Positions 1,270 through 13,555 of a stretch of DNA of 13,555 nt are shown here, piece after piece. Positions within the stretch are counted from its first letter, which is position 1. Each line of letters begins with the position of its first letter. Origin of the DNA: Sphingobacteriales bacterium. Lineage in GTDB: Bacteria; Bacteroidota; Bacteroidia; Chitinophagales; Chitinophagaceae. A program made the position numbers and the translations under genes. The stretch spans positions 1 through 13,555 of the forward strand of contig JAHEZF010000021.1 in the NCBI GenBank assembly GCA_023251215.1, in the 5' to 3' direction. A model generated the notes under the pieces. The model was not told where the DNA came from, did not search any database, and was given only the letters and a program-made list of their open reading frames with translations.

Positions 1270-2778
1270 TTACTCTGTCCATGCAATGCTTGCCATCACC
1301 GCCCTCTGCCATCCATTCAGTAATTCCTTTCTTTTTTTATCATCCATTTGCGGGGAAAAAGATTTGTCAATCTGCCACTGTTGTTGAATGTCCTCCACAT
1401 TTTCCCAGTAACCAACAGCAAGGCCGGCTAAATATGCTGCACCCAAAGCAGTTGTTTCAGTAATTCTGGAGCGAACCACGTTGCAATTCAAAATATCGCT
1501 TTGAAATTGCATCAAGTGATTATTGACAGTAGCGCCGCCATCCACTCTCAGTTCTTTGATCTTTATTCCGGCATCTGCTTCCATCGCTTTCAATACATCA
1601 TAGGTTTGATAAGCAATGCTGTCTGTTGCTGCTCTTGCAATATGTGCATTGCTGCTGCCTCTCGTTAATCCGAAAATAGTTCCTCTTGCATGCTGGTTCC
1701 AGTGTGGTGCACCCAGGCCAGCAAAAGCGGGAACGATATAAACTCCATCCGTATCATTTACCTGTTGTGCTAACTTTTCTACTTCTGCAGATGTTCTGAT
1801 GATCTTTAATTCATCTCTCAGCCATTGAACTATTGCACCGGCAATGAAAACGCTTCCTTCCAAAGCATATTCGGTTTTACCCTCAATCTGCCAGGCAATG
1901 GTAGTAAGTAAATTATTTTTTGAGGCAATAGCTTTTTCTCCTGTATTCATCAACATAAAACAACCGGTACCATAAGTATTTTTTACCATGCCCGGTTGCG
2001 TACACATTTGGCCAAACAACGCAGCCTGTTGGTCGCCGGCAATACCTGCAACAGGAATTGCTATATCTGTAATATTATTACCGGTATTTCCATAGATATT
2101 GCTGCTGGATTTTACTTCAGGTAAAACAGATGCAGGAATGTTGAACAGTTTCAATAATTCTTCGTCCCATTGCAGCGTATGAATATTGAAAAGCATCGTT
2201 CTTGATGCATTGGAAACATCAGTGACATGCACTTCACCATTGGTGAGTTTCCAGGTGAGCCATGTATCAATAGTGCCAAAAGCCAGTTCTCCGTTTTCTG
2301 CTTTTGTTCTTGCACCGGATACATTATCCAGGATCCATTTCAATTTAGTAGCTGAGAAGTATGCATCAATGATCAATCCTGTTTTTTGCTGGATTATGAC
2401 AGGTAGAGACACAGAATCCTGTGTCTCTACCTTTAAATCATCACAATAAGCGGCGGTTCTTCTGTCCTGCCATACAATGGCATTGTAAATAGGGTTACCA
2501 GTTTTTCGTTCCCACACAACTGTTGTTTCCCGTTGGTTGGTAATGCCTATACCTGCCACTTGATTCATATTGATATTAGCTTTGGCAACTGCTTCTCTCA
2601 TCGTACCCAATTGTGAACTCCATATTTCATCTGCATCATGTTCTACCCAACCGGGTTGTGGAAAAATTTGTTTGAATTCTTTTTGAGCAACGCTGATAAT
2701 GTTTCCCCTTTTGTCAAAGAGCATACTGCGGCTGCTGGTAGTACCCTGGTCAAGAGAGAGAATGTATTGAGAAGGCAT
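1270..2778 (-). CDS. glpK: Glycerol kinase
   Basis: This cytoplasmic FGGY-family kinase phosphorylates glycerol with ATP to sn-glycerol-3-phosphate, the substrate of the adjacent GlpD. The 502-residue product is full length. Visible landmarks are the ATP-binding [11 protein letters not shown] at residues 7-17, WVEHD at 44-48, the glycerol-contacting R83-E84 in TNQRETT, Y140 in DAYFSATK, the catalytic aspartate in [14 protein letters not shown], and the second FGGY region with [18 protein letters not shown]83-E84 matches the E. coli numbering, whereas the tyrosine that is 135 in E. coli is at 140 here. The net five extra residues fall in the stretch [12 protein letters not shown], which is encoded by a perfect 32-bp palindrome at 2401-2432. 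The start ATG fits the family N-terminus exactly. The gene lies 63 bp downstream of the DUF5686 gene on the same strand, so its own promoter or read-through are both possible. No glpF is visible here. Confidence 0.97.
2401..2432. repeat. Perfect palindrome inside the glpK reading frame
   Basis: Two 14-bp arms, AGGTAGAGACACAG (2401-2414) and its exact reverse complement (2419-2432), flank a 4-base loop AATC. On the glpK strand the element is read in frame and encodes the segment around [10 protein letters not shown]. It resembles the GTAGAGAC-type dispersed palindromes I recall from intergenic regions of Bacteroidota, but here it sits in a coding sequence and keeps the frame open. Confidence 0.9.
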
Positions 2779-12943: not shown

Positions 12944-13555
12944 ATGTTAAGCGTTAAGTCATTTACTTTTAACCCGGTTGAGGAGAATACCTATGTTTTG
13001 TATAGCCAAAACAAAAGATGCTGCATTATTGACCCCGGATGCTATTTTCAAAAAGAGAGGGACGGATTAAAAACGTTCCTTGATGAGACAGGCCTTACAC
13101 CCATTCTGCTGCTCAATACCCACTGCCACCTGGATCATGTATTCGGCAATAAATTCGTGTATGATACATGGAAACTGCCCCTGCATCTTCACGAAAAAGA
13201 AAAGCCAATGCTTGATCTTGCTCCTGCCTCTGGCCAAATGTGGCAACTGCCCTTTGACCATTACGATGGGCCATTGGTTTATTTGAAGGAGGGTTCAACT
13301 ATAAAAATAGATGATGATGAAACCGATAGCCATCGGTTGGAGATACGGTTCACGCCGGGCCACTCACCGGGCAGTGTTTGCTTTTATAATGAAGCCGGAG
13401 GATTTGTGATAGGGGGTGATGTACTCTTTAATGGCAGCATTGGCCGAACCGACTTGCCGGGCGGCGATTATGATACCTTAATTAATAGTATTCAAACCCA
13501 GCTATTCACTTTGTCGGATGAAACTAAAGTATATCCCGGCCATGGGCCAATGACA
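12944..13555 (+). CDS. MBL-fold metallohydrolase (glyoxalase II/YcbL-like), 3' end missing
   Basis: The frame opens at ATG 12944 and gives 204 residues to the right edge; the family is about 210-215 residues, so only the last few are missing. All expected metal ligands are present: H60, H62, D64 and H65 in THCHLDH, H140 in TPGHSPGS, D159 in GGDVLF, and H200 in YPGHGP. The segment NGSIGRTDLPGGD (163-175) is typical of the short glyoxalase II-like/YcbL subgroup, which binds two metal ions and hydrolyses thioesters or related substrates in the cytoplasm. The long C-terminal substrate domain of true glyoxalase II cannot fit if the protein ends soon after the edge, so a YcbL-like enzyme of uncertain substrate is the best call. 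It is divergent from the TolB-propeller gene across 158 bp containing a GC hairpin. Confidence 0.92.
   Translation, partial: MLSVKSFTFNPVEENTYVLYSQNKRCCIIDPGCYFQKERDGLKTFLDETGLTPILLLNTHCHLDHVFGNKFVYDTWKLPLHLHEKEKPMLDLAPASGQMWQLPFDHYDGPLVYLKEGSTIKIDDDETDSHRLEIRFTPGHSPGSVCFYNEAGGFVIGGDVLFNGSIGRTDLPGGDYDTLINSIQTQLFTLSDETKVYPGHGPMT

Follow-up and report, generated by a model that had tools for sequence, protein, structure and literature searches.

The window, that is, the whole stretch of 13,555 nucleotides that was analysed (contig C204 of genome G000), belongs to a 72%-complete draft genome that comprises 345 contigs and 2,021,486 bases. On its reverse strand, positions 1270–2778 carry glpK, which encodes a glycerol kinase of 502 residues. 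The product matches solved GlpK structures and scores 755.8 bits against the NCBIfam model TIGR01311, above the cut-off of 590. The active-site residues R83, E84, Y140, and D249 are all present, in agreement with an earlier note on this DNA, which placed R83 and E84 in E. coli numbering and the tyrosine at position 140. Codons 117–126 (positions 2401–2430, same strand) encode a 10-residue peptide, with a net gain of five residues relative to relatives. Just 3' of glpK, positions 1173–1267 hold AT-rich inverted repeats of the ATTGAATATTGA type.

The DNA of this peptide forms a perfect palindrome (2401–2432, reverse strand), in which the arms at 2401–2414 and 2419–2432 are complementary in 14 of 14 nucleotides (100%) around a loop of 4 nucleotides (2415–2418), and the reading frame is kept, as the earlier note had described. 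This is the longest hairpin in the window when loops of up to 10 nucleotides are considered, and 60 dinucleotide shuffles of its sequence produced no arm of 14 bp (maximum 11, mean 8.7). The corresponding RNA hairpin has a calculated energy of -24 kcal/mol. Within the palindrome lies a 28-bp core, GTAGAGAC-N12-GTCTCTAC (2403–2430, reverse strand), which has GTAG at each 5' end and whose pattern occurs in the same genome and in relatives. The GTAG is paired with CTAC, so that the element has the form of a double-foot REP, with 5' GT[AG]G and 3' C[TC]AC ends in one long hairpin.

The insert was absent from all 29 glpK genes of relatives with which the gene was aligned. The aligned segment of these genes is five to six residues shorter, rather than of the same length with unrelated codons, which bears out the proposed gain of about five residues. 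In a wider set of 146 glpK loci, taken from named genomes and relatives with the present locus included and some genes present twice, 130 were parsed and 16 were not. Among the parsed loci, the segment has 14 residues in 124 and 13 in three, and a longer segment was seen only in the present gene (19 residues), G060 (31), and G167 (15). Insert-bearing glpK was observed as DNA only in the present genome and in G060, whose copy has decayed. In one relative (L147, the glpK of G404), the segment at the insertion site is six residues shorter and reshuffled (VWQDRRTSTAVSTAQSIQQKTGL); this is possibly the scar of a lost insert.

A structure model built from a more diverse alignment (mean pLDDT 92.8) places residues 117–126 in a turn between the predicted helices 106–117 and 125–133, with two-residue strands predicted at 119–120 and 123–124 within the insert. 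A model from a shallow alignment was poor (mean pLDDT 54) and was set aside. The loop position that had been proposed from the sequence thus has a counterpart in the model, whose fold agrees with those of solved GlpKs. In addition, R83, E84, Y140, and D249 are invariant in the 41 GlpKs compared, 27 of which have a longer segment. Because of this invariance and the match of the modelled fold with solved GlpKs, the enzyme is likely to have retained its activity despite the insert.

The earlier note had associated the palindrome with intergenic dispersed repeats, and in the main this reading is supported. The exact 28-mer itself occurs once in the 2.02-Mb, 72%-complete genome even when three mismatches are allowed. 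The outer arms, however, do recur: the pattern GTAGAGAC-gap-GTCTCTAC is found in this genome as two exact copies and one copy with one mismatch, the controls giving none. The alternative outcome, that the arm occurs nowhere else in the genome, is therefore true of the exact arm only. The number of copies in this genome is small for a REP family. The second exact copy of the outer arms (contig C228) differs in its interior, which forms another near-perfect palindrome, and its GTAG provides the TAG stop codon of a neighbouring open reading frame. The copy with one mismatch (C268) has an imperfect interior and is intergenic, beside a tRNA-Gly gene and within no long open reading frame. Across relatives, the family pattern was found in 16 of 99 genomes including the present one (15 of 98 relatives), with no occurrence of the reversed control pattern. 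A narrower pattern that covers the GlpK variants described below was found in 21 of 394 genomes of a draw from the family, again with the present genome included and with a control of zero, and the genome of the best GlpK match (G112) holds 15 copies of the GlpK-like sub-family. A different palindrome, CCGATAGCTATCGG, was seen in a sigma-54-type regulator reading frame and an intergenic stretch of the same genome (L004 2301–2314 and L343 ~88–105), with a one-mismatch copy in the window at 13323–13336.

The surroundings of 125 distinct REP copies were retrieved; these are the listed copies and do not represent a random sample. A spanning open reading frame with at least 60 residues on each side was found for 12 of them: seven are RAYT-like, one encodes an NAD-dependent DNA ligase, one a sortilin/BNR-repeat protein, one is the present GlpK, and two are doubtful short frames. 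DNA for VETRHALSLx or VETGHALSLx lies in frame in five of the RAYT-like frames (L207, L209, L255, L270, and L272) and also in the sortilin/BNR protein (L302), and other interiors of the same palindrome lie in frame in the RAYT-like frames L246 and L250 and in ligA (L249). The interiors within genes include AAGGCATGCCTT in the RAYT of G027 and AGGGCATGCCCT in that of G124. For 21 of the 125 copies, the flanks lengthen the palindrome by at least 5 bp (0.12 expected with equal bases), so that each of these copies is precisely centred in a longer inverted repeat (e.g., L229 1593, L240 1510, and L200 534), some of which look terminator-like by eye. These REPs thus often form the tip of a more extended inverted repeat, which may hint at how targets are chosen or at flanks being copied afterwards.

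The REP family is linked to RAYT-like genes in the relatives. The RAYT-like frame of L270, used as a query, matched 17 of 99 genomes at 1e-10, the REP is present in 16 of 99, and both are present in 10 of 99 (Fisher p = 6.3e-6, with kinship ignored). In G060, G027, G094, G077, G047, and G009, REPs are located either within the RAYT-like matches or at most 150 bp away, and the seven in-frame REPs within RAYT-like genes all come from relatives. The L270 frame, the one frame scanned, is read as RAYT-like from a Pfam Y1_Tnp score of 22.2 bits, just below the cut-off of 23; L255 and L272 are so read from their sequences by eye, and G027, G060, G077, and G094 from similarity search, the match in G094 containing a stop codon. 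The motifs of TnpA_REP subclass 2.4 (NHxH, WQ, and YIxNNP) were read by eye, and the placement of these RAYTs in that subclass is tentative. No RAYT was found in the present genome at its 72% completeness, and at 1e-10 the RAYT-like query had no match in six of the 16 genomes that carry the REP. Loci of high-scoring PF01797 genes were dropped as a proof of linkage: the palindrome was present at none of 30 such loci (one per genome, flanks of up to 1.5 kb, subclass unsorted), and the linked group was found only when a REP-bearing RAYT-like frame served as the query. At L206 1576–3819 (G047:C173), two identical REPs flank a different type of TnpA, with a YIKNQEEHH motif like that of subclass 1.2, and a small open reading frame.

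Related inserts occur at the same place in other GlpKs. A first protein search returned a longer segment in 16 of the best 120 of 7879 matches, the present protein included; this search favours insert-bearing matches because the query itself bears the insert. A second, region-directed search (best 120 of 3085) brought the combined set to 205 proteins, of which 203 were parsed. A longer segment was present in 29 of the 203 (28 of the 204 others retrieved, in a set biased towards inserts), including the doubtful inserts of P0128, P0130, and P0140, and the other 174 are insert-free; P0023 and P0126, which the script did not parse, have no element by eye. The inserts comprise VETQDFASLP, VETRHALSLP, and VETGHALSLP, tandem and partial copies, and varied flanking residues, and exact repeats that translate into VETRHALSL and VETGHALSL were observed elsewhere as DNA. 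When the 29 inserts were back-translated to a 28-nucleotide palindrome, 14 reached 14 of 14 pairs, 13 reached 13 of 14, and two reached 11, as compared with none at 14 and 16 at 13 among 600 length-matched control stretches of the same proteins. In a looser scan (28 or 30 nucleotides), full pairing was reached in one of 300 controls. About 25 of the 28 longer segments resemble variants of the element; their junctions differ in some cases, and they are spread over several parts of the gene tree.

These variants could descend from one ancestral insertion into GlpK, followed by loss or by recombinational transfer between lineages. The gene tree, computed with the segment removed, comprised 96 rows, 30 of them with inserts; of the 174 retrieved proteins that lack an insert it included 45, and of the 23 proteins chosen from loci 22, L147 being left out because its segment could not be masked. 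On this tree, the presence of the insert changes at least 20 times, or 19 times without P0128, P0130, and P0140, whereas 200 shufflings of the labels gave a mean of 26.0 changes and a range of 19–30. With 20 close to the minimum of the shuffled values, the inserts cluster by ancestry to some degree, yet the changes are many. The clustering speaks for a common origin, as does the junction L[KR]-VET...SLP-xx-IQQ shared by many of the variants with five additional residues, and 48 of the 91 inner branches are open, which inflates the count of changes; recombination would also scatter the trait. Even so, the changes number at least 20, and insert-free proteins that are 97–98% identical to insert-bearing ones have kept the normal segment (e.g., P0021 is 97.9% identical to the insert-free P0038). 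P0004 and P0007 differ from each other within the segment alone, and the junctions vary, as in SVF|VETGHALSLQ|, TKSN|VETGHALSLP|ISEM, A|VETGHALSLR|, and SKSMPV|VETGQALSLQ|SL. A single insertion is less likely than not, and the related inserts at this spot probably stem from more than one.

The K directly before the insert is replaced by R in 15 of the 29 insert rows and in 10 of the 174 others, and the element may therefore bring one or two more bases. Elsewhere in 200 aligned GlpKs, inserts of four or more residues recur at one other place, reference residue 235 (in 11 proteins), and a single one lies at residue 142. With such places outside the turn, tolerance alone would appear insufficient to confine the element to it, although the choice of proteins had in part favoured this site. 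The inserts near residue 235 (LPSGALAQEG, LSSGASAKEG, LPSVASAKEG, and similar) were seen in 11 of the 205 retrieved proteins (P0074, P0079, P0096, P0113, P0125, P0127, P0130, P0135, P0136, P0153, and P0163) and in the glpK genes of L037, L146, and L130, where the DNA is weakly palindromic; they may represent another repeat family. In six insert-free glpK genes, the native target had a short motif common to four and weak folds, and neither a hairpin nor a CATGC-type core is claimed as a target rule.

When the ligA of G058 was used as the query of a region-directed search, 333 proteins matched, and 119 of the best 120 were parsed. VET-x3-[AS]SL inserts were found at one LigA site in five of the 119, the query's own record included, and their junctions differ. 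GlpK is thus not alone as a target. Because both samples were drawn with insert-bearing queries, the counts for GlpK and LigA are not prevalences. We consider it slightly short of an even chance that double-foot REPs insert again and again into the same few codons of GlpK, in the turn between helices 106–117 and 125–133, and of LigA, between the OB fold and the zinc finger, through site recognition by a RAYT or because the turn is both attracting and tolerant. If so, members of this bacterial family would be running a natural, recurrent experiment in in-frame peptide insertion, in which a metabolic gene harbours a hotspot for REPs.

The reading that best accounts for the locus, to which we give a probability of roughly 0.88, is that a double-foot REP of about 28–30 bp (GTAGAGAC...GTCTCTAC), of the kind associated with RAYT TnpA_REP subclass 2.4, inserted into glpK and survived in frame. 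A RAYT of subclass 2.4, present or former, would have moved the element through single-stranded DNA, as would be expected from its family. About 13–15 nucleotides of the target would have been lost during or after the insertion; this loss must be assumed because a 28-bp insertion alone does not give +15 nucleotides. The insertion would have survived because it is in frame (net +15 nucleotides) and adds a 10-residue peptide to an inter-helix turn. Frame- or fold-breaking insertions would have been removed by selection, and those in the GlpK turn would have stayed.

It is improbable that the insert is kept for a function, as an mRNA hairpin that tunes glpK or as a peptide that alters the behaviour of the enzyme, which would be true domestication. 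The RNA hairpin of -24 kcal/mol is stable, both arms are still perfect though they lie within codons, and the site recurs in GlpK, with one site in LigA. However, a recent insertion predicts perfect arms equally well, the interiors and junctions vary among relatives, and 174 of the 203 parsed GlpKs do without the insert. The term "domesticated" used in the earlier note is accordingly dropped here: the insert has the look of a tolerated one, gained and lost among close relatives.

A local origin in which the hairpin served as the template for copying one arm (quasi-palindrome mutation), without a mobile element, is very unlikely. The net gain of 15 nucleotides is about the length of one arm, and the tandem and half copies in P0007, P0008, P0115, and P0127 point to template switching at the hairpin once the element was in place, but the same outer arms occur at unrelated loci and in other genomes with reversed-pattern controls of zero, and also inside RAYT-like genes, ligA, and the sortilin gene, a dispersed family that contradicts such an origin. 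An assembly chimera or sequencing artefact of the metagenome bin, which a 72%-complete draft in 345 contigs might invite, is hardly credible given the preserved frame, the coherent genes of the 13.5-kb contig, and the related inserts at the same spot in separately sequenced GlpKs.

The insertion of a double-foot REP into glpK can be set beside known repeat families. The earlier note had likened the element to the palindromic elements of Rickettsia, which, in the accessible part of Di Nocera et al. (2013; PMC3733652), appear as the RPE-4/RPE-6 type with a CGTC tag, in a group unassociated with transposase genes. Both are palindromes in frame in genes that still look functional. Membership in the RPE or CGTC repeats was nevertheless rejected, as the ends here are GTAG/CTAC and the sequence family is different; the family is that of a GTAG...CTAC double-foot REP linked to RAYT genes. 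The same part of PMC3733652 describes short GTAG palindromes that are mostly intergenic, sometimes lie in genes, including one for DNA ligase, and supply TAG stops to neighbouring genes; it places them in Proteobacteria, Cyanobacteria, Chloroflexi, and the PVC group, and there lists Bacteroidetes under CGTC repeats only. The glpK element resembles these REPs as a short palindrome that starts with GTAG, is mostly intergenic, provides TAG stops, and has a DNA ligase case. In the REPs of PMC3733652, as far as the accessible text describes them, the GTAG tag is unpaired and at one end, whereas in the glpK element it is paired with CTAC, which places it outside the 2013 definition.

A closer likeness is given by PMC6006769, the accessible part of which describes "double foot" REPs of TnpA_REP subclass 2.4 that insert in frame into their own transposase gene. 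The glpK element matches these REPs (subclass 2.4, RAYT group 4) in its ends and its hairpin, and its family does so in its association with RAYT-like genes in relatives. Compared with the cases in that part of PMC6006769, the target here is a metabolic gene, variants lie at one spot in many related proteins, and no RAYT was found in the 72%-complete host genome. Judged by title, none of the open-licence papers listed reports recurrent insertion at one GlpK spot, and those listed for the bare 9-mer (20 of 143) and for the peptide HALSLP are unrelated. The double-foot REP and its in-frame insertion are thus already known, and the recurrent in-frame target in GlpK is newly seen. The glpK case connects a palindromic insertion in a gene of core metabolism with a REP/RAYT group that can be identified. 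Together with the related in-frame inserts at one spot each of GlpK and LigA, it offers a countable natural system for the target choice of REPs and for the frequency with which mobile DNA adds peptides to proteins.
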